Of a stretch of DNA of 39,201 nucleotides, positions 9,473 to 33,143 are shown in pieces. This stretch comes from Bacteroidaceae bacterium. GTDB taxonomy: Bacteria; Bacteroidota; Bacteroidia; Bacteroidales; Bacteroidaceae. The stretch spans positions 1-39,201 of the forward strand of contig JAGCPY010000066.1 in the NCBI GenBank assembly GCA_017965425.1, given 5' to 3'. Below the pieces are notes generated by a model. That model was not told where the DNA came from. It made no database searches and saw only the letters and a program-made list of their open reading frames with translations. A program made the position numbers and the translations under genes. Numbering within the stretch: the first letter of the stretch is position 1; each line of letters begins with the position of its first letter.

Positions 9473-10354
9473 TTATTCTAATTCCATTGGATCGTAGTCA
9501 TGCGGCGAGGATTGCAGGTCGCCGACGGTGCCATCGGGGTTGAAATCGCGGATGCCGGCAGTTTTCCTGTAGTTACGGTTAAAGGCTATTTGAAGTTTCC
9601 ACGTATGGGTGCGACTGGACTTCATGAATTCCTCCTTCGGATACTGCCAGATGGGGAATTCGCCCTTCTCTATGGCCACGGCCTCGAAGACATAAAGACT
9701 ATCGACATCGTAAATCTTCAAGATAAGGCCAGGCAAGCCTCCGAACTTCCACGGCCCGCGACGGATGGGGATGTCAGGCGCAAACCAGGCGATGTAGTCA
9801 CGACCGCGCCAGCGGCAGGTGGCTTTCTGGCATGGATGGCCGAGGATGGTCTGCGTATCGTCGGTCAGTTTCCACTCCTGCCCCGTCCACTTCTCCTCAT
9901 ACCGCTGGGGCCATTCCTGTCCGGCAGGCATGACGGCCCATTCGTTGAGGGTGTCGCCGTGGATGAAGATGTTGGAGTGTTGGTACTCGCTCCAAATATC
10001 AGGCTTACGGCCTCGCATCCACCAAGTGCCGTTTGGATAGCCTTTGGGATGTGGATTGGCCTTGGCCCATTTTATTCGCTCGTCATCGGCTTGCTCCACG
10101 AAGAGGCTGCAATACTTCGTCATCCGCTTGCCAATCTGCAACTGTCCGCAGTCGAGATACGTGCTGTCCTGGGTGATGTCCGTGGCACCCCAGGCATAGA
10201 GTATGCGTAAATCCGCCGTGTCGATGGCTTTACGTGCCAAGACCGTGTTGTGCTTATTCATAGGCAGCATGGCACCACTCTGTTTCTGTTGCGCCCCAGC
10301 ATGGCCGTACAGGGCGGCGAGGGCGATGATGATTGAGATGATTTTCTTGCTCAT
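9473..10354 (-). CDS. GLPGLI family exported protein, copy 7 (operon end)
   Basis: A 293-residue protein with a signal peptide (MSKKIISIIIALAAL..., cleavage near AGAQ at about 22), so it is exported to the periplasm or surface. It carries CQKATC at 175-180, RGRDYIAWFAPDIP at 183-196 and the family motif GLPGLI at 206-211, and it ends DYDPMELE. The GLPGLI family is Bacteroidetes-specific with no assigned biochemical role that I know of. It is the last gene of the operon, 11 bases after the outer-membrane protein gene. It is clearly closest to the first copy (18,133-19,011): long stretches such as DTLNEWA and QEWPQRY are shared only by these two. Confidence 0.85.
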   Translation of the reverse strand: MSKKIISIIIALAALYGHAGAQQKQSGAMLPMNKHNTVLARKAIDTADLRILYAWGATDITQDSTYLDCGQLQIGKRMTKYCSLFVEQADDERIKWAKANPHPKGYPNGTWWMRGRKPDIWSEYQHSNIFIHGDTLNEWAVMPAGQEWPQRYEEKWTGQEWKLTDDTQTILGHPCQKATCRWRGRDYIAWFAPDIPIRRGPWKFGGLPGLILKIYDVDSLYVFEAVAIEKGEFPIWQYPKEEFMKSSRTHTWKLQIAFNRNYRKTAGIRDFNPDGTVGDLQSSPHDYDPMELE

Positions 10355-10365: not shown

Positions 10366-13149
10366 TTAAAGTAATTTGAAGCGAATGGTGGCGAGGATGT
10401 TCCGTGGGCGTAACTGTGATGTATTGGTGTAGATGTCAAGGCCGGAATAGGTGACGCGGGTGTAGTGGCGCTGGTCGAATAGGTTGTTGAGTTGAAGTTC
10501 CAGGTCACAACGCCCCAGCTTGTACTTAGCTTTGATGTCGCCAAACCAAGCATGGCGGTTCTCTGCAGTAAGATTCGTGTAGTTATCCTCGACGGCTGCG
10601 GAGAGGGTCATCTGTTTGGTGACATAGACATTCATCGAGAGACGCTGGGTGGCGGTACGCACGGTACGTGAAAGGTCACTTCCGCCACTGTCGGTGTAGC
10701 TGCTGTTCCAAGAGTAGCCACTGCTCAGTACAAAGTTAAGCCATGGCAGGGGTGTTATAGTACCACCAGCTCCAATGCTGATGGTCCGTGTATTGAATGG
10801 ATAGAGCTGATCGGCTATCAGTTGTTCGCTGTGTGAATGGCCGTAGCCGCCGAAAGCTCGAATCGTGGTCTGTAGCCAGTCGAAGCCTTTGCTGAAATCG
10901 AAACTGAGGTTGTATGAGTCTGCGGTAGTAGCCTGATCCACGGCCTGTACAACGCTGGTGGCCCCTTGATAGGAGTAGCCGTAAATCTGATTGTCGCGGG
11001 TGTGGTTGTAACTGGCATTCAGACGGAAGAAGGTGGCGTTCAAGGCACTGCGATAGCCGATGCTGGCGCTGGTGCCGATACGGTCAGTTTCGGAGAGCTG
11101 TTCCACATACGACCTCTGGAACGAGCGGTAGTTGTTCATAATGTAGCCGCTGTAGATGCCGCCCGGGTCGCCAACGTTTCTGTAGTACGAGGCTCCGATG
11201 TTGCCGCTCCAATCGCGCCACTCATAGCTGGTGGAGAACGTAGGCGAGACAAGCAAGTGGACGTAGCTGTGCTTGTCATCGCGGACGCGGTCATCAAGGG
11301 TCTGCGTGTAAAGGTTCAGCGGACAGCCGAGGCTGATGCGCCAGCCGCCGCGCTCCCATTTATAATGCTGACCAAGGGTAAGCTCGTAGGTGTTATACCA
11401 AAGGTCGTTGCGTAGAGAGGGGGTGTCGCTGGTAGAACTGCCGACCTCACTGCCAGAAGCGGCAGGAGGCGTGAATCCATCCAAGTCGGTGGTAATACCA
11501 TGCAAGCTGGCATTGGCTATAATCCCGTATGACAGGGTAAAGTAACCGAAATGGAAATTATAGTTTGTGTGGAAATTAGCGTTGATATGACGCGAGTTAA
11601 TGTCTTGCTGATAGTATTGAGAATTGAAAACCGTCTGCTGAGCATTAAGTGAGTCTATTCCCACGGTGAGCGTATTTGGCCGTTGAGCATAGCCTGCCGA
11701 GAAATGCAGGTCGAGCGTATGCGAACGAATATTCTTGATGAGATTCGTGGTGTTGCTTACAGCTAAAGATGGGCGGTCGAAGTGCTGATGCGTTCTTTCG
11801 CTGCCATAATTAATAGGCTGTGGGCCATCCAACTGTGATGCCAGTAATCCCTCCACCTTGTCGTTGTTCCAACTACCGTCGAACTTGATAACATTTGCCA
11901 GAAAGCCGTCCTTGGCATTCCACATATAGCGCAGATTGCCACTGAGGTCATTCAAGTGCGTCTGCGATGTCAGCGTCTCGGCAGTCAGCAGACGACTGTC
12001 ATCGGTGATGAAACGGTCGCTTTCCGATGTACCCTCGCGGCGAATGTCATCGTGGTGATAGGCTACATTCATCGTTATCTCCGAGTCCTCACCCACTTTC
12101 TCCAAATGGTTCATTGTGGCGATGTGGCTGTGATTGTCGAAGGTGCGTTTTTGCGGCAGGCCGGAGCCGTTGGGCAGTACTGCATTCATTGGGCAGAACG
12201 GGTACAGTCCCACACTGTTGATGTTGGAATAATGTTCGGTCAGTTCGCGACTCACGTCATCGCCCGTGTTATTACCTTTATATAAGGTCATGTTCTGCCG
12301 CTTTTTAGCGAAGTACATGCCTACGACCTCCGCTGTCCGAAGTGGGTTTGATCCGATGACCGTCTGTCCGTCCGTGAGCGGTCGGCTACCGATGCGCCAC
12401 GGGCCGGACTGTTGCCATCCACCACCCACCATCGTGTTTATTGCCACCGTCCCTTTTGCTGCGTTCTTCAGCTTCAGGTTGATGGCCACATCATCCGTCA
12501 GGCTCTTGTCCTGTAGTGCCTTGATGGGCTGGTGGTGTTCCAAAACCTGCACTGTGGCTACGTCCGAGGCGTTTATGTTGTTCGTCGCTAGCCCGTAGCG
12601 TCCTTGTAGCAGATCCATGTCCTCCACGTAGAATTTCTTGATGGCCTTGCCGTTGAACTTGATGGCGCCGCTCTCCGATACCTCAATGCCCGGCATCCGT
12701 TTCAGGACGTCACCAATGACGCGGTCGCCCTGCTGCTGGTAGGCACCAACGGTGTAGTTCAACGTGTCGCCGTGTTGGCGTATCTTATCCGCTTTCACCG
12801 AAACCTCCTTCAGTTCTATCGCTTTCTGTCGCGCGCGGATGTCAACCCTCTGCGACTTGTTCGCCACCACCCGCGCCACATTGCCGATGGCCATGCCCGC
12901 CGCCGTCACTATCACCGAGTCTGTCGCGCTCTTGAACTGCAACTTATAATATCCCTTCGCGTCCGTGTCCGCAAAGCCGATAATGCTCCCCGTCCCTTTC
13001 GGCGACACCGTGACGTAAGCATCTACCGCCTGTCCGAGCGAGTCCGTCACAACGCCCTCGATAACAGTTTGAGCATGTGCCGAACTCAATCCTAATCCAG
13101 CCACTATTGCAGTCATGATGAATATGACCCTAAAGATTCTTCTATTCAT
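10366..13149 (-). CDS. Outer-membrane beta-barrel protein with carboxypeptidase-like and plug-like domains
   Basis: A 927-residue protein. A signal peptide (about 1-27) is followed by a carboxypeptidase-regulatory-like beta sandwich (about 28-115: VIEGVVTDSLGQAVDAYVTV), a plug-like region (about 120-225: IGDVLKRMPGIEV, with NGKAIKKFYVEDMDLL) and a long barrel to the C-terminus. This is the architecture of TonB-dependent-receptor relatives without a SusD partner; such proteins are often neighbours of GLPGLI genes. It probably sits in the outer membrane and moves or holds a ligand or partner protein. Its ATG overlaps the stop of the 55-residue ORF (ATGA), so translation is coupled. The next gene downstream is the seventh GLPGLI copy, 11 bases away. 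Confidence 0.85.
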   Translation of the reverse strand: MNRRIFRVIFIMTAIVAGLGLSSAHAQTVIEGVVTDSLGQAVDAYVTVSPKGTGSIIGFADTDAKGYYKLQFKSATDSVIVTAAGMAIGNVARVVANKSQRVDIRARQKAIELKEVSVKADKIRQHGDTLNYTVGAYQQQGDRVIGDVLKRMPGIEVSESGAIKFNGKAIKKFYVEDMDLLQGRYGLATNNINASDVATVQVLEHHQPIKALQDKSLTDDVAINLKLKNAAKGTVAINTMVGGGWQQSGPWRIGSRPLTDGQTVIGSNPLRTAEVVGMYFAKKRQNMTLYKGNNTGDDVSRELTEHYSNINSVGLYPFCPMNAVLPNGSGLPQKRTFDNHSHIATMNHLEKVGEDSEITMNVAYHHDDIRREGTSESDRFITDDSRLLTAETLTSQTHLNDLSGNLRYMWNAKDGFLANVIKFDGSWNNDKVEGLLASQLDGPQPINYGSERTHQHFDRPSLAVSNTTNLIKNIRSHTLDLHFSAGYAQRPNTLTVGIDSLNAQQTVFNSQYYQQDINSRHINANFHTNYNFHFGYFTLSYGIIANASLHGITTDLDGFTPPAASGSEVGSSTSDTPSLRNDLWYNTYELTLGQHYKWERGGWRISLGCPLNLYTQTLDDRVRDDKHSYVHLLVSPTFSTSYEWRDWSGNIGASYYRNVGDPGGIYSGYIMNNYRSFQRSYVEQLSETDRIGTSASIGYRSALNATFFRLNASYNHTRDNQIYGYSYQGATSVVQAVDQATTADSYNLSFDFSKGFDWLQTTIRAFGGYGHSHSEQLIADQLYPFNTRTISIGAGGTITPLPWLNFVLSSGYSWNSSYTDSGGSDLSRTVRTATQRLSMNVYVTKQMTLSAAVEDNYTNLTAENRHAWFGDIKAKYKLGRCDLELQLNNLFDQRHYTRVTYSGLDIYTNTSQLRPRNILATIRFKLL

Positions 13150-13323: not shown

Positions 13324-14220
13324 TTATTCCAATTCCAATGGATTGTAAGGTGTGTAGATGGACATAGCTTCGCCTATTGTCGTAGTTCCATCGGGATTTA
13401 TCGTGGCTTTATGGAAGTCGGTGGCCTTGAACCAGTTCTCATGGTATGAGCGTTGCATCTTCCATACCTTCTCGCGGGAGTAGCTCGTGTATTCCTTGTA
13501 CTGTTTGAAGCGTGTGATGGGATGCGGGCGAGTCTCGATGCCGATGGCCTCGAAGGTGTAAAGTCCATCCTTGTCCTGTACCTTTAGGATAAGTCCAGGC
13601 AAACCGCCGAACTTCCACGGCCCGCGCTTTACTGGGATGGAGGGAGCGAACCAAGCGATGAAGTCACGTCCACGGAAACGGCATGTCGCCTTTTGACATT
13701 TATAATCGATGATGGTCTGTGTCTCGTTGGTCAACTTCCACTCTTGCTTCGGCACTGCCTCCGTATATTTCGAATTGTAGCGATGCAGATACAATGGCAT
13801 CTGGCAGTATTCCGTCAGTTGTCCGTTTTCAATGAAGTAGTCGCTCCACTCGTATTCGCTCCATTGGTCGTTCTCACGGCATTGCACGCCCATCCAACTC
13901 GGAGCGGATTGTGCACCGGGATGCTCCTTGGCATACTTAGATCGTAGCGAGTCACTCTGATAGACAAACTGGCTGTAGTACTTCGTCACGCGCTTGCCCA
14001 CATCGAGTCGCTGTAGGTCGATGTACGTCAGATGGTCATTAATCTTCTCGGCACAGAAAGCGTAACGGACTCGCAACCGCGTGGTATCGACCACTTCCAT
14101 CTTCGAGAAATCTCTTGCATAGATAGGTGCCGGACATCGCCCGCCCTCTTTGGGTTGTGCACTTGCCCCACCGCATACGGCGGCGAGGACGATGATGATG
14201 GTGATGATTCTCTTGTTCAT
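13324..14220 (-). CDS. GLPGLI family exported protein, copy 6
   Basis: A 298-residue protein with signal peptide (MNKRIITIIIVLAAVCGG..., cleavage near SAQ at 22). It shows CQKATC at 175-180, RGRDFIAWFAPSIP at 183-196 and GLPGLI at 206-211, and it ends YNPLELE. Additional Cys residues occur at 17, 29, 56, 114 and 139. It begins five bases before the stop of copy 5 upstream, measured as a four-base gap, and is followed by the 55-residue ORF. Function is unknown; the role of the paralogues is treated in the findings. Confidence 0.85.
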   Translation of the reverse strand: MNKRIITIIIVLAAVCGGASAQPKEGGRCPAPIYARDFSKMEVVDTTRLRVRYAFCAEKINDHLTYIDLQRLDVGKRVTKYYSQFVYQSDSLRSKYAKEHPGAQSAPSWMGVQCRENDQWSEYEWSDYFIENGQLTEYCQMPLYLHRYNSKYTEAVPKQEWKLTNETQTIIDYKCQKATCRFRGRDFIAWFAPSIPVKRGPWKFGGLPGLILKVQDKDGLYTFEAIGIETRPHPITRFKQYKEYTSYSREKVWKMQRSYHENWFKATDFHKATINPDGTTTIGEAMSIYTPYNPLELE

Positions 14221-14224
14221 ACGT

Positions 14225-15055
14225 TTATTCTTTCTCTAACTGTTCAAACGGCTTATCGGGAAATTCATTTGACTGTGCTGTGGCTTTCCAGAAATTCACT
14301 TGCAGCACGCGCTGCAACTTCCGAACTCTTTGCCTTGTGGACTTCATGTAATTGAATTCGTAGAGCATCATCAGCTCGTTCACTTTCTTCAGACTGACGG
14401 CCTCGAAGGTGTAGAAACGGTCTGTGTCATACAGCTTGAGAATCAGTCCCGGCAAGCCGTTGAAACGCCACGGGCCTCGCTTTATGGGAATATCAGGGGC
14501 GAACCATGCCACATAGTCACGCCCACGCCAATGACAGGTTGCCTTTTGGCAGCGGTGCTCCAGTATAGTCATTGTCTCGTTGTGCAGCGTCCACTGTTGC
14601 GGCGGACATGGCTCGGTAAACTGGCTATTATTGCTTTCGTGGTACATGGGCATGTCGGCATACTCTGTGACCTGACCGTCCTTGAAGAAAAGGTCGGTAA
14701 ACTGAATATCGTTCCAGAAACCATTATTCTTACCTGGCTTGCCTCCTCGCAGAATGGCTTGCCCGTCTTTGGTTGGGCGTGTGCTGCCAACAAACTGTTT
14801 CAGAAACAGGCTGCTGTACTTCGCACAGTCTCGTCCTATTTCCAGACGTTGCTTGTCGATGTAGGTCTGTTCCTGACCAATGGAGTCTGCATTCATGGCA
14901 TAGTCCACATACATGATGGTTGTGCCTACCTGTTTCTCTTTTAGCCCACGGCGCGTTTTTGTACTCGGAATCACTTCGCCTTGGTTCTGCTGGGCGTTTG
15001 CATCGCCGAATACAGCAGCAAGGGCCAGTAAGATGCTGATGATTCTCTTATTCAT
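14225..15055 (-). CDS. GLPGLI family exported protein, copy 5
   Basis: At 276 residues this is the shortest copy. The signal peptide is MNKRIISILLALAAV with cleavage near NAQ at 22. It shows CQKATC at 169-174, RGRDYVAWFAPDIP after it, and GLPGLI at 200-205, and it ends in EQLEKE rather than LELE. The central third differs most from its neighbours (KNNGFWNDIQFTDLFFKDG), which suggests a different partner or ligand. Four bases separate it from copy 6 and twelve from copy 4. Confidence 0.85.
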   Translation of the reverse strand: MNKRIISILLALAAVFGDANAQQNQGEVIPSTKTRRGLKEKQVGTTIMYVDYAMNADSIGQEQTYIDKQRLEIGRDCAKYSSLFLKQFVGSTRPTKDGQAILRGGKPGKNNGFWNDIQFTDLFFKDGQVTEYADMPMYHESNNSQFTEPCPPQQWTLHNETMTILEHRCQKATCHWRGRDYVAWFAPDIPIKRGPWRFNGLPGLILKLYDTDRFYTFEAVSLKKVNELMMLYEFNYMKSTRQRVRKLQRVLQVNFWKATAQSNEFPDKPFEQLEKE

Positions 15056-15067
15056 GTTGATGTCTGC

Positions 15068-15931
15068 TTATTCTAACTCCATCGGGCTATAGGGCTTGTC
15101 GTGGAAAGTGTTTCCTTCGAGTGAAGTGACCTTGCCCCCATAAAGCACGGTAAGCCAGTTGATGTTGATTTTCTTCTGAAGCTTCAGCATGTTCTCACGC
15201 TTTACTTTCTTAAACCGCGAGAAGTTCCATTGCATAATGGGACGTTTCACCCGTTCCAATTTCACCAGTTCGAAATTGTACTCCTTCTTAGCATCGGAGA
15301 TTTTTACGATGAGTCCAGGCAGGCCGCCAAACTTCCACGGGCCGCGCTGGATGGGAATTTCAGATGTGAACCACGCCTCGTAGTCACGGCCACGCCATCG
15401 GCAGGTGGCCTTCTGACAGCGGTAGCCGTGTATGGTCTTCTGCTCGTCTTTCAGTGTCCACTGCTGTTTGGGTACAGACTCGGTATACTGGCAACATCCG
15501 TGGTCAAGATTCATCGGCATGATGGCATACTCCGTCAGCTGACCATCCTTGATGTAAATCTCGTCGAACTGGTATTCCGACCAACGACTGGGGAACTTGC
15601 CGCCGTAAGTCCGCTGGGCAATGCCGCTTTCTCCTCTACTGTTTTTGATCATCTTGGGTTGGTAGGTCGAATCGCTGTGTGCCACGAAATAGCTGGCAAA
15701 CTTTGAGTACTGCCTGCCCACCTGCAGCCACCCGAGGTCGATGTAGGTGTTCTCGTCCTTGATGTCGTCGGCGTTGAAGGCGTAGTACACCGTCACCAAT
15801 GCCGTATCTATAGCCGTCGGCGTGCTACCGCCACGTCTGAAAGACGGTGGCACATCACCCTGTTTCCATTGGGCACTTGCCCCGCAACATAAGGCAAGAG
15901 TCAGAATGAGAGTGAAGAAACTCTTGTTCAT
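15068..15931 (-). CDS. GLPGLI family exported protein, copy 4
   Basis: A 287-residue protein with signal peptide (MNKSFFTLILTLALCCGASAQ). It contains CQKATC, RGRDYEAWFTSEIP and GPWKFGGLPGLIVK in the usual order near residues 170-210, and it ends YSPMELE. In the acceptor-like segment it has EAWF in place of the IAWF or VAWF of most copies. It lies three bases after copy 3 and twelve bases before copy 5, deep in the operon. Biochemical role unknown. Confidence 0.85.
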   Translation of the reverse strand: MNKSFFTLILTLALCCGASAQWKQGDVPPSFRRGGSTPTAIDTALVTVYYAFNADDIKDENTYIDLGWLQVGRQYSKFASYFVAHSDSTYQPKMIKNSRGESGIAQRTYGGKFPSRWSEYQFDEIYIKDGQLTEYAIMPMNLDHGCCQYTESVPKQQWTLKDEQKTIHGYRCQKATCRWRGRDYEAWFTSEIPIQRGPWKFGGLPGLIVKISDAKKEYNFELVKLERVKRPIMQWNFSRFKKVKRENMLKLQKKININWLTVLYGGKVTSLEGNTFHDKPYSPMELE

Positions 15932-15934
15932 AAT

Positions 15935-16804
15935 TTACTCCTTTTCAAGTGGTTCAAATGCCACCTTCTTTGGTGTCCGTTTACCTTCAAGGCTCGTCCA
16001 GCCGATGGCCTCCCAATAATCCTCGTTGTACTTCTTCTGCAGCTTCCATATCCTATCGCGACTGGCCTTGGGATAGAGCTTGTCGGGGTATTGCGCAATG
16101 AGGAAAGTGCCGCGCTCGATGGCCACTGCCTCCCAGACGTAGATTTTCTGCACGTCATAGACCTTGAGGATACAGCCGGGCAAGCCGCCGAACTTCCACG
16201 GCCCGCCCTTGATGGGTACGTCGGCAGCAAACCACGCCACGAAGTCGCGGCCACGGAAATGGCACGTGGCTTTCTGGCAGCGGTGGCCGAGGATGGTCTG
16301 CTGCTCGTCGGCCAGCGACCATTGCATCAGCGGCCACGGCTCCGTATAGCTGCTGTTATCACGCTCTGCCCACCAAGGGAAACAGGCGTATTCCTTCAGT
16401 TGATTGCCACGAATGATGTAGTCAGAGAATACCAATTCGCTCCAATGGTCGTCGTGCTCCTTTGGACCGCCCATCCAAAAGTTCCTCGGCACATAGCCGT
16501 TCCACTTTTTCTCTTTCTTCCACTTGACAGCTTCCACGTCGGACACATCAAGGAACTCGCTGCTGTATTTCTTGACTCGCTTGCCCACCTCCAGTTTCCC
16601 AAGGTCGATATAGGTATTCTCGTCCTTGATGTCCTTGGCATTGAGGGCATAGAGCACGCGCACACGTGCCGTGTCGATGATGCATTGCTTGTCGTAGCCA
16701 CGCTTTTCGCGGACTGGCACGCGCCCATTCCGCTTGGGCTGCGCCATCGCCCCGCTACAAAATGCGGCGAAAGCGAAGAGGATGGTGATGATTCTATTAT
16801 TCAT
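15935..16804 (-). CDS. GLPGLI family exported protein, copy 3
   Basis: A 289-residue protein with signal peptide (MNNRIITILFAFAAF..., cleavage after GAMAQ). Motifs in order: CQKATC, RGRDFVAWFAADVP, GPWKFGGLPGCILK. The family motif is altered here to GLPGCI, the only copy with a Cys at the fifth position, which gives it an extra thiol. It ends FEPLEKE. It starts twelve bases after copy 2 and ends three bases before copy 4. Confidence 0.85.
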   Translation of the reverse strand: MNNRIITILFAFAAFCSGAMAQPKRNGRVPVREKRGYDKQCIIDTARVRVLYALNAKDIKDENTYIDLGKLEVGKRVKKYSSEFLDVSDVEAVKWKKEKKWNGYVPRNFWMGGPKEHDDHWSELVFSDYIIRGNQLKEYACFPWWAERDNSSYTEPWPLMQWSLADEQQTILGHRCQKATCHFRGRDFVAWFAADVPIKGGPWKFGGLPGCILKVYDVQKIYVWEAVAIERGTFLIAQYPDKLYPKASRDRIWKLQKKYNEDYWEAIGWTSLEGKRTPKKVAFEPLEKE

Positions 16805-16816
16805 AATATGATTTGT

Positions 16817-17677
16817 TTACTCTAACTCCAACGGTTCATACGAATGCGGATTTGACTTTGGTTGTCCCGTTGTTCTGTCAATGGCGCCACCTGCTTTCAG
16901 GTGGTCGCGATTGGCGGCTACCTGTAGTTTATAGACATGGGCACGGCTGTCCTTGCGGAAGCCCTCGTATTTGCGCTTGGTGATGGGAAACGTGCCGGAA
17001 CGCAGGCTGACGGCCTCCCATGTGTAGAGCCGCTGCGTGTCGTTGAGTTTCAGTATCAGCCCGGGCAGACCACCAAACGACCACGGGCCGAGGCGCACGG
17101 GGATGTCGGACGCAAACCATGCCTCGAAGTCGCGGCCCCGCCAGTGGCATGTCGCTTTCTGGCATTCGTGGCCGAGGATGGTCTTTCGCTCGTTGGCCAG
17201 CGTCCATTTCTGCTGTGCGGCAGGCTCTGTGTAGTAGGCATTGTAGCGCTCCATGGCCCACGGCATCCAGGCGTAGAAGGTCTGCTGTCCCTGCTCGGTG
17301 AAAATCTCTGTTGATTGGTACTCGCTCCAGTACTGCCCCTCGCGGCCTATCGTATAAAAGGTGCTGGGCACGCCCTCGGCGTTCGGGTTGGCCTTCATGT
17401 AGGCATCATAGAGCGAGTCGCCCCGTTCCAGGAAGCGGCTGTAGTGCTTGCTCAGCTGCTTGCCCGCCCGCAGAATGTGGAGGTCGAGGTACGTGTCAGG
17501 GTTGCGGATGTCTGTAGCATTCAGCGCATACTCCACTTCGAGTTGTGCCTGCCCCACTACGGTGGTCTTTCCCACGCCCCTTGGCTTCGGCCTCATGACG
17601 TGTCCCTGCTTCTGCTGCGCCATCGCACTGCCGCAAATGGCGGTGAGGACAAGGACTGCCAAGATGATTTTTTTCAT
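16817..17677 (-). CDS. GLPGLI family exported protein, copy 2
   Basis: A 286-residue protein with signal peptide (MKKIILAVLVLTAICGSAMAQ). Motifs: CQKATC, RGRDFEAWFASDIP and GPWSFGGLPGLILK; it is the only copy with GPWSF in place of GPWKF or GPWRF. It ends YEPLELE. It is translated nine bases after the TonB C-terminal gene. The first third (QAQLEVEYALNATDIRNPDTYLD) shows that the block ahead of the CX4C motif is also conserved across the family, which has a regular beta-strand pattern. Confidence 0.85.
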   Translation of the reverse strand: MKKIILAVLVLTAICGSAMAQQKQGHVMRPKPRGVGKTTVVGQAQLEVEYALNATDIRNPDTYLDLHILRAGKQLSKHYSRFLERGDSLYDAYMKANPNAEGVPSTFYTIGREGQYWSEYQSTEIFTEQGQQTFYAWMPWAMERYNAYYTEPAAQQKWTLANERKTILGHECQKATCHWRGRDFEAWFASDIPVRLGPWSFGGLPGLILKLNDTQRLYTWEAVSLRSGTFPITKRKYEGFRKDSRAHVYKLQVAANRDHLKAGGAIDRTTGQPKSNPHSYEPLELE

Positions 17678-17686
17678 AGCTACACC

Positions 17687-18097
17687 TTATTTACATCTGA
17701 ACTGCACGGCATGTGAGGCACTTTGACGGACAGTCTTGCCCTTCAGTTTGGCGGGCTTCCATTTAGGCATCTTCTTGACGAACTCCACTGCAGCAGCATC
17801 GAGGGCGGGGTGGATTTTGAGGCTGTCGGGAACCTTGATATTGCTGATGCTGCCGTCGGCTTCAATGACAAAATGGACGACGACTGTCCCCTGTGCCTTG
17901 TCCTTCTCAGCTTCAGCGGGGTACTTCATGTTTCGCATCATGAAGCTCATCATGCCCTCCTGACCACCGGGGAACATAGCGCGCTGGTCCACCTGCTCGG
18001 CTGAATAAATGGGATTTGCTGTCTGTGCCGAACTCTCGGCTGTGCCTGCCACCAGCATCATGGCTGCGGCAAAGGCGATCATCATGTACTTTTTCAT
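17687..18097 (-). CDS. Secreted TonB C-terminal domain protein
   Basis: A 136-residue protein. A cleavable signal peptide (about 1-25, ending ESSAQ) is followed by a TonB C-terminal fold (about 45-136: FPGGQEGMMSFMMRNMKYP ... GTVVVHFVIEADGSISNIKV ... VKKMPKWKPAKLKGK). It lacks the N-terminal membrane anchor and Pro-rich spacer of TonB, so it would be a free periplasmic protein rather than an energy transducer. It lies second in the GLPGLI operon, 35 bases after copy 1. The sigma-TonB fusion at 32,126-33,070 has the same type of C-terminal domain, which may matter for signalling. Confidence 0.85.
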   Translation of the reverse strand: MKKYMMIAFAAAMMLVAGTAESSAQTANPIYSAEQVDQRAMFPGGQEGMMSFMMRNMKYPAEAEKDKAQGTVVVHFVIEADGSISNIKVPDSLKIHPALDAAAVEFVKKMPKWKPAKLKGKTVRQSASHAVQFRCK

Positions 18098-18132: not shown

Positions 18133-19011
18133 TTATTCAAGCTCTAAAGGGTCATACGGATGTGGTTCGGACAGCAGGTCGCCAATGGTGCCGTCCGGGT
18201 TCATGCGTCGTCGCCCTGAGGTCTTCTTGAAGTTACGGTTGTAGGCGACTTGCAGCTTCCATGTATGGGCGCGGGTGGACTTCATGAATTCCTCCTTGGG
18301 ATATTGCCAGAGAGGGAACTCGCCCTTCTCGATGGCCACAGCCTCGAAGACGTAGAGGCTATCGACATCGTGAATCTTCATGATCAATCCTGGCAGTCCG
18401 CCGAACTTCCACGGGCCACGTCGGATGGGGATGTCGGGCGCAAACCAGGCAATGTAGTCACGCCCCCGCCAGTGACAGATGGCGCGCTGACAGGGATAGC
18501 CGAGAAACGTATCCGTTTCTTCCACAAGTGTCCACTCCTGCCCAGTCCACTTTTCGTCATACCTCTGCGGCCATTCTTGTCCCATCGGCATGATGGCCCA
18601 TTCGTTGAGTGTGTCGCCGTGGATATAGATGCTGGAGTACTGGTATTCGCTCCAGATGCCTGGCTTTTTGCCCCGCATCCACCAGGTACCGTTAGGAACG
18701 TTCTGTGCGTGCGGGTTCTTCTTTGCCCACTCCACGCGCTGACTGTCAGCCACCTCAATGAACCAGCTGCTGTATTTTGTCATGCGCTTCCCTACGAGCA
18801 ACTGCCCGCAGTCGAGATACGTACTGTCCTGGGTGATGTCCAAAGCTCCCCAAGCATACCTGATGCGCAGGTTTGCCGTATCGATTGCCTTGCGTGCCAG
18901 AACGGTGTTCTGATTTCCATTGGCGTATGCTCCGCTCTGTTTCTGTTGTGCCTCAGCCGTCATGCCACAAGCCATGAGCGCTGCAACAAGGAATATAGTC
19001 TTTCTTTTCAT
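18133..19011 (-). CDS. GLPGLI family exported protein, copy 1 (operon start)
   Basis: A 292-residue protein with signal peptide (MKRKTIFLVAALMACGMTAEAQ). Motifs: CQRAICHWRGRDYIAWF (here CQRAIC instead of CQKATC) and GPWKFGGLPGLIMK, ending YDPLELE. It is the promoter-proximal gene of the operon: its ATG lies about 36 bases downstream of the GCGTTATAA element. It is most similar to copy 7 at the far end of the operon, suggesting that the two derive from a recent duplication or gene conversion. Confidence 0.88.
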   Translation of the reverse strand: MKRKTIFLVAALMACGMTAEAQQKQSGAYANGNQNTVLARKAIDTANLRIRYAWGALDITQDSTYLDCGQLLVGKRMTKYSSWFIEVADSQRVEWAKKNPHAQNVPNGTWWMRGKKPGIWSEYQYSSIYIHGDTLNEWAIMPMGQEWPQRYDEKWTGQEWTLVEETDTFLGYPCQRAICHWRGRDYIAWFAPDIPIRRGPWKFGGLPGLIMKIHDVDSLYVFEAVAIEKGEFPLWQYPKEEFMKSTRAHTWKLQVAYNRNFKKTSGRRRMNPDGTIGDLLSEPHPYDPLELE

Positions 19012-19046: not shown

Positions 19047-19092
19047 TTATAACGCTTTTACCCCCGAATCTTTACCCATAAAAGATGTTAAA
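19047..19092 (-). promoter_or_regulatory. Candidate ECF promoter of the GLPGLI operon
   Basis: On the minus strand: TTAACATCTTTTAT, then GGGTAAA (GGTAAA at 19,076-19,071), a 15-nt spacer, and GCGTTATAA (19,055-19,047). Two further copies with the same spacing lie upstream of 21,404-23,554 and 32,126-33,070. A -35 of GGTAAA with a GC-flanked -10 is of ECF rather than housekeeping type. Confidence 0.7.
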
Positions 19093-19501: not shown

Positions 19502-21373
19502 CTATTTACATACTTTCTCTATTTCTTGAAAGATGGTGCCAATGGTGGCGTCATCGAAGCCTGTTTGCTGCCAGGAACAGCGTCCTTCAGAGTCATAGAG
19601 GAAGTACTGTGGAATTGAACTGACGTCAGGAATCTTCGACCATAGGGCGTTGGGAATTCGGTAGTGTTGGCCAGGTATGCGAAGAACTTGCTCGCTCCAT
19701 TCATTTAAGGGGCTGCTCTCGTTTGTAAGATAGACGAAATAAACATCTTTTCCTTTAAGTTCTTCCTTCATAGGTTCCATAGCATGGATACCCTTCATAC
19801 ATGGACCGCACCAAGTAGCCCATAGATCAAAGAAGACAGCCTTGCCAGGGTATTGTGCGGCTATCGTTTGTAGGAGCTGGTCGGCTGGTACATCGGGCGT
19901 GGGCTTCATGCGTTCCTTGGCTTCACGCTGCAAGCGTTCCACGAGCATACGCGTGCTATCGTTGAAGGCGCGTAGTACGGGTTGGAAGTAAGGATGTATG
20001 CGGGCGATGGCGCTGTCTGTCTGCACCTCGACTTTCTTCATCTTTTGTCCGAGGGCTATGGCTTCGTCGAAGGCAGCGAGGAAGTCATACACCTCGCCGT
20101 GGTCGAGGCCATTGGCACGGAGATATGGCAAATAACTTGTGTTAGTCGTGGCGTAGTAGGTAGTTCCATCTCGGAAGAGATGCAGGTCTCGGGCGTGCGG
20201 GTCTTCGAGGGTGTATGTGGTCTTCAGCCGGGAAACAGCGCTGTCGGCATTGAGTCTTAGCGTCCACATCTTATATCGGAGCGCAGGTTCATAGTTCTGG
20301 CGGATATTCAGGTAGGCGCGGTCGGCCAGCAATTGTGCGTAGTCGCGTTGACGACGTGTGTAGTCTGGGCGTTGCAGCATACGCTGCCTGATTGAGTCGA
20401 TACTTTGCCACAGGCGTTCGCTCCACTGCGTGAATGTCTCGCCGTCATGATACTCCGGCACCTCCTTAATCTGCGTATGCGCTAATGTTTGGTTCTCCAA
20501 TAATACTTGGTTCAGATCGGCCAGTGTTCCACCCAGCCTGTAGCAGTCTTGCGGGGTGATGGTGCTTTTACATCCAAGGCTACGTTCTGCGCAAGTAAAG
20601 GCATCCACATCAAGCGTTAACGTCTCACCTGGCACATGTAACAGGGGGAAATCTCCGTTGTAGCCTGTTGGATCAATATCAAACCCAATCCATACCATTC
20701 GCATAGGTAGGTATGCAGGGTGGCAGAAAATAGTGGTGGAGTCAAGATATTGCGTCTCGGATTCATATTGGCCCGTGATAGGGTCGCAAGCAGGTTGACC
20801 ATAATAAGAAAAGCACTTTCCGCCATGCACTGTCACCGTTGCTGTTGCCTTGCCGTAAGTTGGCGTGATCGGCTTTAACGGCTGGCCGTCATCCACATGT
20901 GGTTGATAGGCGGGGAATATGGATGAGTATTTTTTTCCGTCAAGCCGGATACCGCGAATCTGCCATGCACCCTCGGCATTGCCCTCTATGTAATCGAACG
21001 CCTTAACGTCCTTGGGCAATGCCTCGAAGGTGAGGATTAGCGAATCCTGCTGCGCGTTCCGCGTATATCTCCTGCCTAATTCAAAAACGTCATCGGCCAG
21101 CACCTGACCGCTGTCGTGCGTAATAATGCGCCCCGTCTTGAAGGCAATCTTTTGACCGCAGCATTCTAACCGTGCACCGTCCATGCTCCAATCACGCCTG
21201 TGGGCACAGGCTATATGAAAATACACGACCGTCTCTTTCTTCCTCAATTCTACCTTGACAGGACAAAGGCTATTGCTTGTTGTGCGGAAAGCGGGTCGCT
21301 CAACGACAATGTCTTTTGCCAAAGCCGATAACGACAGCACAAAGACAAACATTGCAAAAAGAATCTTTTTCAT
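19502..21373 (-). CDS. TlpA-type periplasmic thioredoxin with long N-terminal region
   Basis: A 623-residue protein. A signal peptide (about 1-19, LSLSALA) is followed by a 480-residue N-terminal region, including a beta-rich first part, and then a TlpA/thioredoxin domain with the active-site motif WCGPC at about 521-525 (context DLWATWCGPCMKG) and a cis-Pro segment SIPQYFLYD. It would act as a disulfide oxidoreductase in the periplasm. It is the second gene of the operon behind the peptidase; 30 bases separate them. The N-terminal block resembles that of the second TlpA-like protein (23,900-24,838), so the two are paralogues of different length. Its likely substrates could include the CX4C-bearing GLPGLI proteins; that is inference. 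Confidence 0.85.
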   Translation of the reverse strand: MKKILFAMFVFVLSLSALAKDIVVERPAFRTTSNSLCPVKVELRKKETVVYFHIACAHRRDWSMDGARLECCGQKIAFKTGRIITHDSGQVLADDVFELGRRYTRNAQQDSLILTFEALPKDVKAFDYIEGNAEGAWQIRGIRLDGKKYSSIFPAYQPHVDDGQPLKPITPTYGKATATVTVHGGKCFSYYGQPACDPITGQYESETQYLDSTTIFCHPAYLPMRMVWIGFDIDPTGYNGDFPLLHVPGETLTLDVDAFTCAERSLGCKSTITPQDCYRLGGTLADLNQVLLENQTLAHTQIKEVPEYHDGETFTQWSERLWQSIDSIRQRMLQRPDYTRRQRDYAQLLADRAYLNIRQNYEPALRYKMWTLRLNADSAVSRLKTTYTLEDPHARDLHLFRDGTTYYATTNTSYLPYLRANGLDHGEVYDFLAAFDEAIALGQKMKKVEVQTDSAIARIHPYFQPVLRAFNDSTRMLVERLQREAKERMKPTPDVPADQLLQTIAAQYPGKAVFFDLWATWCGPCMKGIHAMEPMKEELKGKDVYFVYLTNESSPLNEWSEQVLRIPGQHYRIPNALWSKIPDVSSIPQYFLYDSEGRCSWQQTGFDDATIGTIFQEIEKVCK

Positions 21374-21403: not shown

Positions 21404-23554
21404 TCAAGTAGTACGCCTCTGGCGGATGAATAAGATGATTAGGAGAAAGACAACAGCGGCGAGGGCGTATGGCAGGGATTTCCAGCCTTTGCGTGTATCG
21501 ACGGCGGGGATTTCGAGGTAGGTGCCTTCGGCGATGAGCTGGAGGGTGCGGTCGAGGATGTAGTCGCCGTCGTAGTGGAACTCAGCCTCAGACATGGGGA
21601 TGTCGCAGTCGGGGATGACGCCGCGGAGGGCGGGCAGACGGTCAGTGACGGTCTCGTCGATGACCACGCGCACCATGGGTATGGTGGCGGTGAACTGGCT
21701 GTTCGGGAGGCTGATGTTGGCGAACTTGATGCAGGTTTCGGTGTGGTAGGCGCTCATGGTCTCGCGACCTACTACGTAGCCGCGGTCGTTGCGCTTGATG
21801 GCTCCTGCCAGGAAGGCAGATGCTGAGGCAGAGCGGCTGTCGATGAGGACGTAGAGACGGCCGTTGTAGCCCAGGGAGTCGATGGAGGAAATGGTGGCGT
21901 TATCATCTTCCTCCTGCATCAGATAGAGTCCCTTGCGGCCTTCGACGGGTTTGAAGCCCGCGAAGATGGTGTCGCCCGGAATCAAGTTCATGGTGGGGCT
22001 TTGAAAGAGGGCGGCGTTGACCTTCTGATAACTTGTGTGCGGGCGGTCGGCAATGCGGCCGAGCAGGGTACGGGTGATGCGAGCCTGCACACCCGCATCG
22101 CCGCCGTAGTTGTTGCGGACGTCGAAGATGAGGAACGGCACGCTGTCGCGCTCGGCCTGGTGAATGGCATCGACAACGCTGTCGCAGTCCAGCTGACTGA
22201 GGCTGAAGGTGCTGATGCCGATATACATGACGCTATCGTTTTCCATGCGCACTTCGAAGGGCCCGCGCTTGCGGCGGTTGATGTACTGGTTACGCGCCCA
22301 TTTCTCCGTGGGGTATATTTTATTTGAATAGTTTGGAACCATGGGAAGTTCCATTCGCTCGCCGTCCTCGAACTCATAGACAATAGTCCTGCCTTCGGGT
22401 TGAAGTCCGAGTTCGAGGCCATAGTCAATAGCGTTCCAGTAGCAAGCGAAGTAGTCGCCTACGGAGTGGACGCGAGCATCGTAGTTTGTAGAGTTGCGGC
22501 GGGTGATGGCGATGAGGTCAGCGGCGGGCTTTCCGTCGATGCGGGCGATGCGGCGCCCCACGTAGGCGGCGTGTGCACTGTCGGCCATCAGCACTACGCA
22601 CTCCATCGTTCCTAATGAATCGCTGTTAACCACATGGCCGAAGAACAGCGACGGCAATCCGTAGCGAAGGCTTCGTCCCTGTTCCTTCGGGTCGGCAGGC
22701 ACGCGGCAGTTGATGTTGAAGTGTGAATCGTGGATGACGGCGTTGTAGTCTTTGACGAGAGCGGCGAAGTCCTTCAGCGCGATGCCGTCGGCAGGGATGC
22801 GAGCCAGCTGCTCCTTGACAAAGGTATCATACTCCGCCTCACTCATCAGGTCGTCCAAAGAAGGATACATCTCCTTCACGCTACTAGCCAGCTGGCGGTA
22901 GTCGGCCACTGCCTCATCGTGTGTCAGATGGAATTTGGTCGGGCGCGCTTCGGGCTTGCGGAAGGTGGTGCGTAGGCCGAAGGGTGTCATGGGGTCGTCT
23001 GCCACGGAATGCCTGGAAACAGAGAGGTCGATGTGCGGCTGGCTGATGGCGTTGTAGGCATAGCCCACCGTACCAAGCACGTCGCCCCGCTTCAGACGAG
23101 TGCCTGTGGGGATGGAACCACCATCTCCGAGAGGCCGAAGTCCATTAATCCATAGTGTCTTGTCACCTATCTTCAGACCGATGGACAACATGAGATAACG
23201 GATGTCCCAGCCCTTGCTGCGGAAGTAGTCCTTCTGTTCGGCTACAAGCGCATCATAGCCTTGGTCGCTTCCTCCCCAAGTGGTCGAGTTGGTTAGTGAC
23301 ATATTGTAGGTGTAGTTGTAACTCGTAACCACGGCATCGGCGGGACACACCACCCGCGTCCCCTCCGGCGCGCCGATGAAGAGATTCCCGAAGTTGAATT
23401 CCTTCTCGATGTTGTCCTGCGGACGGTAGAGGATACCCTCGCCCGTGTTCTGTCCCTCAATGGGCCACAGCCACACCTCTTCGGCTGCAAGCGATAAGCT
23501 GACGGACATGAACAGTTCCGCAAAAAAGAAGAGGAAAAAGATTTTTGTTTTCAT
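21404..23554 (-). CDS. S41-type peptidase with M23-like N-terminal domain and C-terminal membrane anchor
   Basis: A 716-residue protein. Signal peptide about 1-24; an M23-like segment about 60-200 (APEGTRVVCPADAVVTSY ... LKRGDVLGTVGYAYN ... QPHIDLSV), in which the usual zinc-binding HxH is not preserved in full, so activity is doubtful; then an S41 C-terminal-processing peptidase domain with the catalytic-serine loop SRSASASAF at about 573-581 and GYVVGRETMSA after it. It ends with a membrane helix (about 693-711) and RQRRTT. First gene of its operon, preceded by an ECF-like promoter. The role is processing of an exported protein or peptide; the substrate is unknown. Confidence 0.85.
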   Translation of the reverse strand: MKTKIFFLFFFAELFMSVSLSLAAEEVWLWPIEGQNTGEGILYRPQDNIEKEFNFGNLFIGAPEGTRVVCPADAVVTSYNYTYNMSLTNSTTWGGSDQGYDALVAEQKDYFRSKGWDIRYLMLSIGLKIGDKTLWINGLRPLGDGGSIPTGTRLKRGDVLGTVGYAYNAISQPHIDLSVSRHSVADDPMTPFGLRTTFRKPEARPTKFHLTHDEAVADYRQLASSVKEMYPSLDDLMSEAEYDTFVKEQLARIPADGIALKDFAALVKDYNAVIHDSHFNINCRVPADPKEQGRSLRYGLPSLFFGHVVNSDSLGTMECVVLMADSAHAAYVGRRIARIDGKPAADLIAITRRNSTNYDARVHSVGDYFACYWNAIDYGLELGLQPEGRTIVYEFEDGERMELPMVPNYSNKIYPTEKWARNQYINRRKRGPFEVRMENDSVMYIGISTFSLSQLDCDSVVDAIHQAERDSVPFLIFDVRNNYGGDAGVQARITRTLLGRIADRPHTSYQKVNAALFQSPTMNLIPGDTIFAGFKPVEGRKGLYLMQEEDDNATISSIDSLGYNGRLYVLIDSRSASASAFLAGAIKRNDRGYVVGRETMSAYHTETCIKFANISLPNSQFTATIPMVRVVIDETVTDRLPALRGVIPDCDIPMSEAEFHYDGDYILDRTLQLIAEGTYLEIPAVDTRKGWKSLPYALAAVVFLLIILFIRQRRTT

Positions 23555-23587: not shown

Positions 23588-23633
23588 TTATAACGCAAAA
23601 GTGTCCGAATCTTTACCCATAAAAGATGTTAAA
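23588..23633 (-). promoter_or_regulatory. Candidate ECF promoter of the peptidase/thioredoxin operon
   Basis: Same pattern as ahead of the GLPGLI operon: TTAACATCTTTTAT, GGGTAAA (GGTAAA at 23,617-23,612), 15 nt, GCGTTATAA (23,596-23,588), then 34 bp to the ATG at 23,554. The spacer differs from the first copy except for its start (GATTCGG), so the conserved parts are the outer elements. Confidence 0.7.
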
Positions 23634-31425: not shown

Positions 31426-31914
31426 TTAAGGATTGAATCGTTCTTTGAGTCGGCTGATGGCCTGAACGAGATGCTTGTACACTGCCACCTCGCTGATACC
31501 GAGGCGCGTGGAAATCTCGCGGTAGCTCATCTGTTCCTGAAAGCGCAACCGCACCACCTCACGTGTCTGAGGTGTCAGTTCCGTATCAACGAACTGCAAC
31601 ATAGCGTCCAGCACGTCCTCCGTCTCATCAATCTGCGGTTCCTCTACCATCTCTTCACCGATAGGAAGTAGTTTGTGTACACGTTCGGACAACCGCTTAT
31701 GACGCAACAGGTTTAGGCAACGGTTGCGCACGGAAGACAGCATATATGACGCTGCATTGTCTCGGATGGCGGCAGGGGTTTCTACGATGTGTGCAAACAC
31801 GTCACTCACCACATCATTTGCCTCCTCACTGTCGCCTAACAATCGCAGTGCCAGCCGCATCATCGGCTCGCGATGCTGCTCATAGACACGGTATATGTCG
31901 GATGTCACTTCCAT
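31426..31914 (-). CDS. ECF sigma factor (FecI-type)
   Basis: A 162-residue protein with sigma region 2 (about 8-75: YEQHREPMMRLALRLLGDSE, VSDVFAHIVE) and region 4 (about 100-155: LDAMLQFVDTELTPQTREVV, SYREISTRLGISEVAVYKHL). It is the first gene of the sigma, anti-sigma, STN-receptor operon. It lacks the membrane and TonB extensions of the sigma factor at 32,126, so the window holds two quite different ECF factors. A candidate ECF-type promoter lies upstream at about 31,934-31,965. Confidence 0.9.
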   Translation of the reverse strand: MEVTSDIYRVYEQHREPMMRLALRLLGDSEEANDVVSDVFAHIVETPAAIRDNAASYMLSSVRNRCLNLLRHKRLSERVHKLLPIGEEMVEEPQIDETEDVLDAMLQFVDTELTPQTREVVRLRFQEQMSYREISTRLGISEVAVYKHLVQAISRLKERFNP

Positions 31915-31965: not shown

Positions 31966-32002
31966 TTTCTTCATTTTTTACTCAAAAAAGCTATTTTTGT
32001 TC

Positions 32003-32045
32003 AAAATGAAAGCCCCGTCACGTCATCACGACGCAGCGGAGCCTA
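32003..32045 (-). terminator. Terminator-like element E4 after the sigma-TonB gene
   Basis: Minus strand: the same hairpin core (CGTC, GTGAT, GACG) followed by CTTTCATTTTG. It lies 81 bp beyond the stop of the sigma-TonB gene and is the near-identical partner of E2. Confidence 0.6.
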
Positions 32046-32168
32046 TGTGCCTATAGGACTTTCATCTTCTTGCTCAGCTGTGCCGCTTGGCTCGGCCAAG
32101 ACATGTTTTTATGAAACACAATTATTTATCTTAATCTGAACGTGATGGGCATACAGAAATGGCTACGG
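32003..32168 (-). repeat. 165-bp direct duplication, copy B
   Basis: Near-identical partner of 23,632-23,796. It covers the last 42 bases of the sigma-TonB gene, its stop, a spacer and terminator element E4. Because here it continues into a full gene, this copy is likely the source. Confidence 0.85.
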
Positions 32169-33070
32169 ACGGGGCGACCTTCGTTTTGTGCGGGAATCCA
32201 TGGCTCCGTCTGGTGTAAAACACGGAGGGCTTCCTTACTTAGAAGATCATCAGGTGATTTCAGCACCTCGAAGTTGGTCAAGCGACCGTCTTTCTCCACC
32301 ACGAAACGGATGATGACGCGCCCTTCTATGCCTTTTTCTATGGCTGAATCAGGATAGTGCATTTCGAAGGCGATGTGGCGGTAGAGGGCATCGACATCCC
32401 CACGATAACTGGGCAGACACTCCGGAGTCTCATAAATAGTAGTGTCCTCTGGCAAGTTGAAAACCTTTTCTATGACGCCGCGAACCCGGCCCGCAGGGCT
32501 GATGATAACAGCAATAGCAATACCTGTTGACAAAGCCAATAGAGCAAACAATAGAAGATGGCGAAGCCCTATGAAATGACGGCGCAGCTCGGTACGCAGG
32601 CGGCTACGTACATGCGATATGGTTTTGCGGACGGTGGCAACAGAAACACCACGTACTTCAGCTATCTCCTCAACGGTCAGGCCTTGCTCATAGAACAAAT
32701 CCCAAACTTCCTGCTCTGTCTTGGGTAGCTGTTTGAGACGTGACTGCAACCACTCGGAGTTCTCGCGTTCCTCCATCTCTTCTTCGGGTGTGACCTCAGA
32801 AACAACAGAACCCTCTTCGTCTGTCAATTCCACCTGCGTCCGATGGCCGCGCCACATCGATACGCAGCAGTTTCGGGCGATACGCAGGACGTAGGCATCT
32901 GTTAGCATCACTTTTTCACGTACATTCCATGCCCTCAGCCATGTTTCCTGCACCACCTCCTCAGCCTCGGTGTCGGAGCCGAAGAACTCACGTCCCATCT
33001 GCATTAGCCTTGGTCGCATCCTTTCGACCATTTGCTCAAACTCCTGTTCTGTCATTACGCTTTTATCCAT
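32126..33070 (-). CDS. ECF sigma factor fused to a membrane helix and TonB C-terminal domain
   Basis: A 314-residue protein from ATG 33,070. Sigma region 2 about 9-75 (EAEEVVQETWLRAWNV, AYVLRIARNCCVSMW), region 4 about 110-165 (LPKTEQEVWDLFYEQGLTVE, GVSVATVRKTISHVRSRL), a membrane helix about 169-191 (LRHLLLFALLALSTGIAIAV) and a TonB C-terminal domain about 218-314 (YRHIAFEMHYPDSAIEKGIE ... VIIRFVVEKDGRLTNFEVL). The TonB part would be in the periplasm and the sigma part in the cytoplasm. I know of no characterised sigma factor with this layout. An in-frame ATG at 33,160 would add 30 residues encoded by the promoter region itself. A long leader from the upstream -7 box could use it. Confidence 0.85.
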   Translation of the reverse strand: MDKSVMTEQEFEQMVERMRPRLMQMGREFFGSDTEAEEVVQETWLRAWNVREKVMLTDAYVLRIARNCCVSMWRGHRTQVELTDEEGSVVSEVTPEEEMEERENSEWLQSRLKQLPKTEQEVWDLFYEQGLTVEEIAEVRGVSVATVRKTISHVRSRLRTELRRHFIGLRHLLLFALLALSTGIAIAVIISPAGRVRGVIEKVFNLPEDTTIYETPECLPSYRGDVDALYRHIAFEMHYPDSAIEKGIEGRVIIRFVVEKDGRLTNFEVLKSPDDLLSKEALRVLHQTEPWIPAQNEGRPVRSHFCMPITFRLR

Positions 33071-33098: not shown

Positions 33099-33143
33099 TA
33101 TAACGCAGAAGCCCCAAAAAGTTTACCTATAAAAGATGTTAAA
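33099..33143 (-). promoter_or_regulatory. Candidate ECF promoter of the sigma-TonB gene (third copy)
   Basis: Minus strand: TTTTAACATCTTTTAT, AGGTAAA (GGTAAA at 33,127-33,122), 15 nt, GCGTTATA (33,106-33,099), 28 bp before ATG 33,070. It has the same layout as the two operon promoters, which suggests autoregulation. Confidence 0.7.

Follow-up and report, generated by a model that had tools for sequence, protein, structure and literature searches.

We found that a Bacteroidaceae genome (assembly GCA_017965425.1) encodes a single protein in which an ECF sigma factor is joined through a membrane helix to a TonB C-terminal domain (TonB_C), and comparison with related genomes confirmed that this fusion is real. 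The gene lies in a 39,201-nt stretch of DNA, contig JAGCPY010000066.1, which was analysed as a whole and is called the window here. Sequence comparisons suggest that the fusion turns on its own gene and a small set of neighbouring envelope genes. We favour, with a probability of roughly 0.6, a one-protein cell-surface signalling switch with a tethered sigma domain, a TonB_C tip, proteolytic release and a regulon defined by a shared promoter.

Fusion gene and protein architecture

The fusion gene occupies 32126..33070 on the minus strand and was delimited by homologues and by domain and hydropathy matches. Its frame runs from an ATG at 33070 to a stop ending at 32126 and encodes 314 aa with no internal stops. 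An ORF finder gave an alternative start at 33160 (344 aa), which was rejected in favour of 33070 because the added 5' stretch overlies a promoter-like element and loci L018 and L022 have no open frame across it. Pfam placed Sigma70_r2 at residues 14-77 (E 1.8e-10), Sigma70_r4_2 at residues 106-158 (E 1.3e-10) and TonB_C at residues 237-313 (E 2.6e-18; 66.7 bits vs a cut-off of 24.6). Sigma regions 2 and 4 are adjacent and region 3 is absent, the layout of ECF (group 4) sigma factors, and the sigma part matched TIGR02937 with 82.4 bits vs a cut-off of 42.9. The single hydropathy peak (residues 172-190, mean 2.79) follows sigma4 after ~10 residues and is separated from TonB_C by a linker of 33-46 residues, depending on where the domain start is set. 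The three parts thus stand in the order, and in the uninterrupted frame, that an earlier sequence-only reading of this DNA had described. TonB_C was the only domain after the helix, and no FecR-like periplasmic domain was found there with Pfam up to E 0.1. The predicted topology has the sigma domain in the cytoplasm and the TonB_C tip in the periplasm.

Among solved structures, a profile built from nine fusion copies matched TonB C-terminal domains (9e-6) as well as ECF sigma factors, SigW among them at 4e-14. In the AF2 model (mean pLDDT 64.4, pTM 0.40), residues 144-190 form one unbroken helix, the last sigma4 helix running into the membrane segment. Compared with the PDB, the model gave weak matches to SigW for the sigma fold (E 6.6e-6, target TM 0.45) and to the H. 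pylori TonB C-terminal domain for the TonB fold (E 2.6e-3, target TM 0.60). The YP pair, which is important in TonB C-terminal domains, was kept in 24/24 aligned fusion copies (by eye).

Distribution and conservation

Full-length open fusion frames recurred at 66-96% identity. Among 139 genomes of the same genus, 16 carried the fusion at 18 places, 15 of them full length and three partial, and all three partial copies ran into a contig end. A family-level profile search (E 1e-28) found full-length fusions in 12/399 genomes (own genome included) from six genera, as well as fusion pieces in G762 and G717. With a profile at E 1e-30, the order sample (393 genomes) and the phylum sample (395 genomes) each returned one fusion genome, the window's own, with at most five candidates scored per genome, so that a distant fusion could be missed. 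Ten loci matched in named genome records: eight with the fusion, of which one is truncated at a contig end, and two as distant sigma-only matches. The eight fusion-bearing records were titled uncultured Bacteroidales, Prevotellaceae, Prevotella or Bacteroidaceae, and three of them mention goat rumen or omasum.

The sigma/TonB_C junction was the same in 24 aligned full-length copies. Mean pairwise identity among these was 0.80 for sigma2, 0.79 for sigma4, 0.58 for the helix, 0.56 for the linker and 0.67 for TonB_C. The corresponding median dN/dS values were 0.11, 0.11, 0.24, 0.27 and 0.12, based on 141-219 of 276 pairs with saturated or near-identical pairs omitted. Every part of the fusion is under purifying selection, including the helix, which was present across the 24 copies and whose conservation the sequence-only reading had made a test of its proposal. 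In the sigma-part tree the fusions formed one clade (23 rows, support 100/99), and in the TonB-part tree one group with weaker support (84/79, 21 rows), for which a single fusion event would be the simplest reading. The genomes are drafts and many are metagenome-assembled, but an assembly error, the objection that the sequence-only reading had itself raised, or a dead fusion of two genes is refuted and left with practically no probability: the fusion is found in 16/139 genomes of the genus, spans six genera within a single family, groups as one clade, and has an identical junction, open frames and dN/dS well below 1 in all parts.

Unfused relatives and the place of the anti-sigma factor

The best NCBIfam match of the fusion sigma part was the GFO_1088/PG0214 family (NF058625), with scores below the cut-off of 130 bits in the window's fusion (100.3) and in two others (97.1 and 74.2). 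The unfused sister sigma L161 passed this cut-off and L156 did not. The nearest unfused relatives of the sigma part belong with the GFO_1088/PG0214 family. We examined eight unfused sigma genes that were 32-39% identical: L155 (8382 and 1730), L156, L157, L158, L159, L160 and L161. These comprise six of the seven sister-clade members, L146 being the seventh, and two others. In gene calling an overlapping ORF took the place of the L160 sigma ORF, whose position comes from the homology search. In 8/8 cases the gene after the unfused sigma encoded a protein with a hydrophobic helix (hydropathy peak at least 1.6; range 1.68-2.59), that of L156 being FecR-like. By position and layout these proteins appear to be anti-sigma-like.

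For the fusions, the neighbourhood sample comprised 27 genes, of which 22 were assessable; four ended at or within ~100 bases of a contig end, and G003, with 1.07 kb and no called genes left after the fusion, was also excluded. A lone anti-sigma gene stood directly downstream of the fusion in 0/22 assessable loci, and another complete sigma/anti-sigma pair did so in 2/22. Together with the helix protein after 8/8 unfused sigmas, this supports the earlier proposal that the fused part replaces a separate anti-sigma factor, the helix and TonB_C tip probably standing in for the helix-bearing protein that neighbours of related sigma genes encode. An outside anti-sigma role is conceivable at some loci, since the fusion of G018:C50 has upstream of it an S41 gene and one for a zinc-finger (zf-HC2) protein.

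Gene neighbourhood

The next same-strand gene after the fusion was a barrel-type gene (orthologue of 10366-13149) or a GLPGLI gene in 18/22 assessable loci. As in cell-surface signalling, a dedicated outer-membrane barrel-type gene is linked to the fusion sigma gene. Two genomes, that of the window and that of its near relative G487, have an S41 gene and an ECF/FecR-like/barrel triplet between the fusion and the operon, whose promoter-like element lies ~13 kb from the fusion in the window and ~9 kb from it in G487. In G491 the S41 peptidase gene is next after the fusion, ~100 bases away. The fusion of G018:C141 has no adjoining operon, and its next gene is unrelated and on the opposite strand.

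GLPGLI operon. All genes of this operon in the window are on the minus strand. The first (18133..19011) encodes a GLPGLI family protein (TIGR01200 7.5e-33, PF09697 4.3e-9), a family annotated in Pfam as of unknown function. It is followed by the gene of a 136-aa stand-alone TonB_C protein (17687..18097; PF03544 1.9e-18) with a signal-peptide-like N-terminus (by eye) and no hydropathy window of at least 1.6. Next are five GLPGLI genes within 13324..17677 (16817-17677, 15935-16804, 15068-15931, 14225-15055 and 13324-14220), each above the PF09697 cut-off, then the gene of a 927-aa outer-membrane barrel-type protein (10366..13149), and last a further GLPGLI gene (9473..10354; PF09697 2.3e-10), so that 7/7 GLPGLI genes of the window passed the Pfam cut-off. 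All seven GLPGLI proteins (9473-19011) also matched the PNGase F-II N-terminal domain (best 7.7e-11), six passing the cut-off of 27.6 bits and one scoring 24.4, which we treat as a hint of fold. A stand-alone TonB_C gene was present in the GLPGLI operon of the window and of G002, G003, G434, G452, G487, G710 and G712; in G003 the operon and the fusion are on different contigs.

Barrel-type protein. The N-terminus of the 10366-13149 product is CarboxypepD_reg-like, at a score below the cut-off, and the protein also has a plug-like segment. Pfam gave no barrel match for the window copy and OMP_b-brl_3 in 4/13 orthologues (best 6.3e-10), the family had no PDB match, and the one NCBIfam match was irrelevant. 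The plug segment aligned with that of the window's other barrel (27713-30790, OMP_b-brl_3) with an hhalign probability of 96.8 (E 2e-10). We accepted the protein as a barrel because of the OMP_b-brl_3 matches in orthologues and this plug alignment. The Pfam families of the 13 orthologues (E 0.1) included no STN signalling domain.

S41 peptidase. A predicted member of the regulon is the 716-aa S41-family peptidase encoded at 21404..23554 on the minus strand (PF03572 1.6e-16), with hydrophobic helices at both ends by hydropathy. It matched the NCBIfam prc model partially (48.4 bits vs a cut-off of 218.6), and a Prc-like catalytic lysine, sought with the residue pattern that we take to mark it, was not seen in the stretch inspected by eye. 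The next gene (19502..21373, minus strand) encodes a 623-aa thioredoxin-like protein (Redoxin, 26.1 bits vs a cut-off of 26.6) and probably belongs to the same operon as the preceding peptidase gene.

Other features. Two copies of a 170-bp direct repeat, 98% identical, lie at 31998-32168 and 23627-23796, the former overlapping the very end of the fusion gene and continuing past it. The genes between the repeats (an ECF/anti-sigma/barrel triplet, an ATPase and a thioredoxin-like gene) look like a later insertion between the sigma and peptidase genes, because in G491 the S41 gene directly neighbours the fusion. The triplet itself (27713-31914), consisting of a separate ECF sigma, a FecR-like helix-bearing protein and a barrel, is directly downstream of the fusion, and L148 and L149 have comparable triplets on the upstream side of theirs. 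A terminase-like gene (33314-34417) had no PHROG match of its own and was 97% identical to part of a 551-aa L117 ORF with a PHROG terminase match (1e-6), and a portal-like gene (4633-6018) had a PHROG match of 6e-5. With such genes flanking it on both sides, the envelope gene cluster sits as if inside prophage remains. Small cNMP-binding (Crp-like) proteins are encoded close upstream of the fusion at L117:4509-5743, L127:5825-6412, L152:13132-13584 and L153:13772-14149. PF00027 was found in 6/6 tested cNMP-binding proteins, among them L130:1159-1617, several genes away from the fusion, while look-alikes in L126 and L150 were recognised by their N-terminus only.

Promoter-like element and predicted regulon

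One element, TTTAACATcTTTTATgGGTAAA-N16-CGTTATA, occurs three times in the window: ahead of the sigma gene, ahead of the S41 peptidase gene and ahead of the GLPGLI operon. Its core is GGTAAA-N16-CGTTATA in every copy. The copies are on the minus strand at 33099..33143 (sigma gene; TTTAACATCTTTTATAGGTAAA-N16-CGTTATA), 23589..23633 (S41 peptidase gene) and 19048..19092 (GLPGLI operon). At the sigma gene, the -35/-10 core covers 33099-33127 and ends 28 nt before the ATG, and a 22-mer covers 33122-33143. This layout is that of an ECF promoter. The 22-mer, TTTAACATCTTTTATRGGTAAA, had three sites in the 3.73-Mb genome with up to 3 mismatches allowed, all of them exact and all in the window, and the reversed 22-mer had none.

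Across the 139 same-genus genomes, with C or T permitted at the first -10 base, the exact core occurred in 12/16 fusion genomes (26 sites) vs 10/123 genomes without the fusion (10 sites), and the reversed core gave 20 sites in all 139. The co-occurrence had a Fisher P of 1.3e-8 (6e-8 without the window's own genome), both made optimistic by shared ancestry. Sites matching the core pattern, 38 of them distinct and nearly all from fusion genomes, have the upstream box TTTAACATcTTTTATg in common, which was not part of the pattern used to collect them. The exact core was absent from G452, G506, G507 and G462; on looser inspection the first three had a variant -10 (CGTTAAA or CGTTATT), and G462 had no core variant in the 5.8 kb inspected. 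Eight of the ten sites in genomes without the fusion were chance-like judged by the spacer alone. G432 contained an S41-type site and no fusion was found in it, and the G521 contig stops 36 bases past a sigma-type promoter, where the gene may be lost at the edge. Allowing one mismatch in the core was uninformative, as sites then appeared in 58/61 genomes with the reversed control similar or higher in most; in the window's own genome the core search gave 3 exact sites and 2 reversed-control sites at one mismatch. The S41 gene adjoining the fusion in G491 has no copy of the element and may be carried on the sigma transcript.

Because the element co-occurs with the fusion and precedes the fusion's own gene, we infer that the fusion sigma reads GGTAAA-N16-CGTTATA. 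The gene set of the sigma itself, a barrel operon and a peptidase fits the pattern of an autoregulated sigma factor, and most likely the fusion controls its own gene along with a small set of envelope genes. The element and an S41 gene also stood after an M56-type gene in L105, L110, L119, L121 and L123 (in L119 after a Penicillinase_R gene), and in L115 after an ECF/helix-protein pair. Several envelope regulators seem to collect around the S41 gene.

Proposed mechanism and alternatives

In the switch that we propose, the ECF sigma domain would be held in the cytoplasm at the inner membrane by the helix that begins ~10 residues after sigma4, and the periplasmic TonB_C domain would be the regulatory tip, substituting for a separate helix-bearing protein. 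At rest the tether would keep the sigma domain away from RNA polymerase and promoters, since a sigma tethered to the membrane at so short a spacing would be expected to form little holoenzyme on DNA. A partner in the periplasm or the outer membrane, probably a product of the neighbouring operon, would perturb the tip, upon which one or more periplasmic proteases, possibly of the S41 type, and then a site-2 protease would cut the protein and free the sigma domain. From the shared promoter, the freed sigma would transcribe the S41 peptidase gene and the GLPGLI/barrel operon as well as the gene that encodes it. Proteolytic release is proposed by analogy, and the signal and partner of the tip are putative. 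An M50 (RseP-type) protease gene is present in the window's genome (8.5e-48), which is weak, permissive evidence because M50 proteases occur in all 14 control genomes. A role of the regulon's S41 peptidase as a feedback protease is speculation, given that its match to the Prc model was partial and far below the cut-off.

The TonB_C tip could meet a TonB-box-like stretch of the barrel, the stand-alone TonB_C protein or a small molecule. A specific form of this idea, in which the tip binds the barrel's TonB-box-like stretch or the stand-alone TonB_C protein in competition with energised TonB and transcription reports receptor occupancy, is tentative and on balance doubtful. The short linker of 33-46 residues speaks against the tip alone reaching the outer membrane. 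If correct, such competition would be a new trans-envelope signalling layout that uses neither an STN domain nor an anti-sigma factor.

The same short linker would suit a tip that senses a ligand or stress near the inner membrane with no outer-membrane contact, like the tips of BlaR1-like M56 proteins. The best-scoring non-sigma relative among the ORFs of the examined loci was an M56-TonB_C protein (L143, 116 bits), and the M56 genes that precede the element and S41 gene in the five loci named above carry TonB_C above cut-off in L105, L110, L119 and L123 and below it in L121. This alternative is plausible but rather unlikely, as the close linkage to a barrel-type gene points to a partner, or failing that an output, in the outer membrane, and the TonB tree leaves the fusion outside the M56 set.

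ToxR and CadC are membrane-bound activators that work in the membrane, and the fusion might likewise act uncleaved, with a change at the TonB_C tip such as dimerisation bringing the sigma domain within reach of RNA polymerase. TonB C-terminal domains are able to dimerise, the tip could pair with the stand-alone TonB_C protein encoded in the GLPGLI operons of eight genomes, the window's included, and a site-1 protease for the cleavage route was not identified. We nevertheless consider uncleaved action improbable: the ~10 residues between sigma4 and the helix, modelled by AF2 as one helix, leave little room for holoenzyme at the membrane, and IutY, a characterised hybrid of the same layout, undergoes cleavage.

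An energised TonB has a helix with a Ser-x3-His pair for ExbB/ExbD and a long, proline-rich, periplasm-spanning linker. The fusion could in principle be such an energiser carrying a sigma domain that reports receptor engagement, in keeping with its good TonB_C match, the YP pair in 24/24 copies and the matches to solved TonB C-terminal domains, but none of the 24 aligned copies had a Ser-x3-His pair in the helix (by eye), which speaks against ExbB/ExbD coupling, and their linker is short and not proline-rich. These helix and linker features make a true TonB energiser very unlikely.

Comparison with known systems

FecI/FecR/FecA-type signalling connects an outer-membrane barrel, a periplasmic relay and an ECF sigma. 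Such systems, of which the window's triplet at 27713-31914 is one, encode sigma and anti-sigma as two proteins, whereas the fusion is one chain. Sigmas of the GFO_1088/PG0214 family (NF058625) do not have the fusion's extra helix and TonB_C. BlaR1-like M56 peptidases with a TonB_C tip (L143, L119, L123) resemble the fusion as inner-membrane regulators with TonB_C, but their output is the M56 peptidase and not a sigma factor, and in L119 the gene lies beside a Penicillinase_R (BlaI-type) gene. Two tandem TonB_C domains were found in the M56 peptidase L143:1090-2874, and a 292-aa protein of the window's own genome (L002:1063-1941) also has two. The occurrence of sigma, M56-peptidase and stand-alone forms in related genomes suggests that TonB_C is a general tip module.

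The sequence-only reading is supported on the protein layout, the helix and the replacement of an anti-sigma factor; it missed the downstream operon and the shared promoter element, and its statement that no protein of this type had been described was too strong. In the parts of the sources consulted, IutY of P. putida (PMC5411451) and ECF48, ECF52 and ECF53 (PMC8999054) are already sigma-helix hybrids. A search of one open-access library yielded no description of a sigma-TonB_C fusion, though the large ECF re-classification may list this architecture. Membrane-bound ECF hybrids are thus already known, and the TonB_C tip and the clear predicted regulon are the unusual features here.

VreA of the PUMA3 system of P. 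aeruginosa shares with the fusion a TolA/TonB-like C-terminal domain in ECF cell-surface signalling, a likeness derived from modelling; as portrayed in the sections drawn on, VreA, which has an STN-type domain, stands alone as a periplasmic protein, encoded next to separate sigma and regulator genes (PMC2729926). In the Fox system, the transducer is reported, in the excerpt used, to shield the anti-sigma protein from proteolysis until the signal comes (PMC11637429). ECF48, ECF52 (SCO4117) and ECF53 of Actinobacteria are, like the fusion, sigma factors with a C-terminal transmembrane-helix extension, but they carry a zinc-finger domain and other extensions; the portion of the text consulted mentions no TonB_C, and the term TonB occurs 0 times in the paper (PMC8999054).

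The predicted promoter and small linked regulon of the fusion make sigma specificity, release and signal testable in one reporter system, and the fusion offers a regulatory handle on GLPGLI proteins. Its closest described counterpart in layout is IutY, an ECF243 hybrid that, in the available parts of its description (PMC5411451, PMC8999054), likewise combines a cytosolic ECF sigma, a single helix and a periplasmic regulatory part in one chain, with an outer-membrane receptor gene adjoining. The periplasmic part of IutY is an anti-sigma domain and its receptor gene is the siderophore receptor iutA, whereas the fusion has TonB_C and a GLPGLI/barrel operon. Processing by Prc and RseP, through which IutY is activated, is experimental for IutY in the same parts of the source (PMC5411451) and predicted for the fusion. 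The comparison suggests that a sigma switch made of one chain and tipped with a TonB-type domain evolved within Bacteroidales in parallel to IutY of P. putida.
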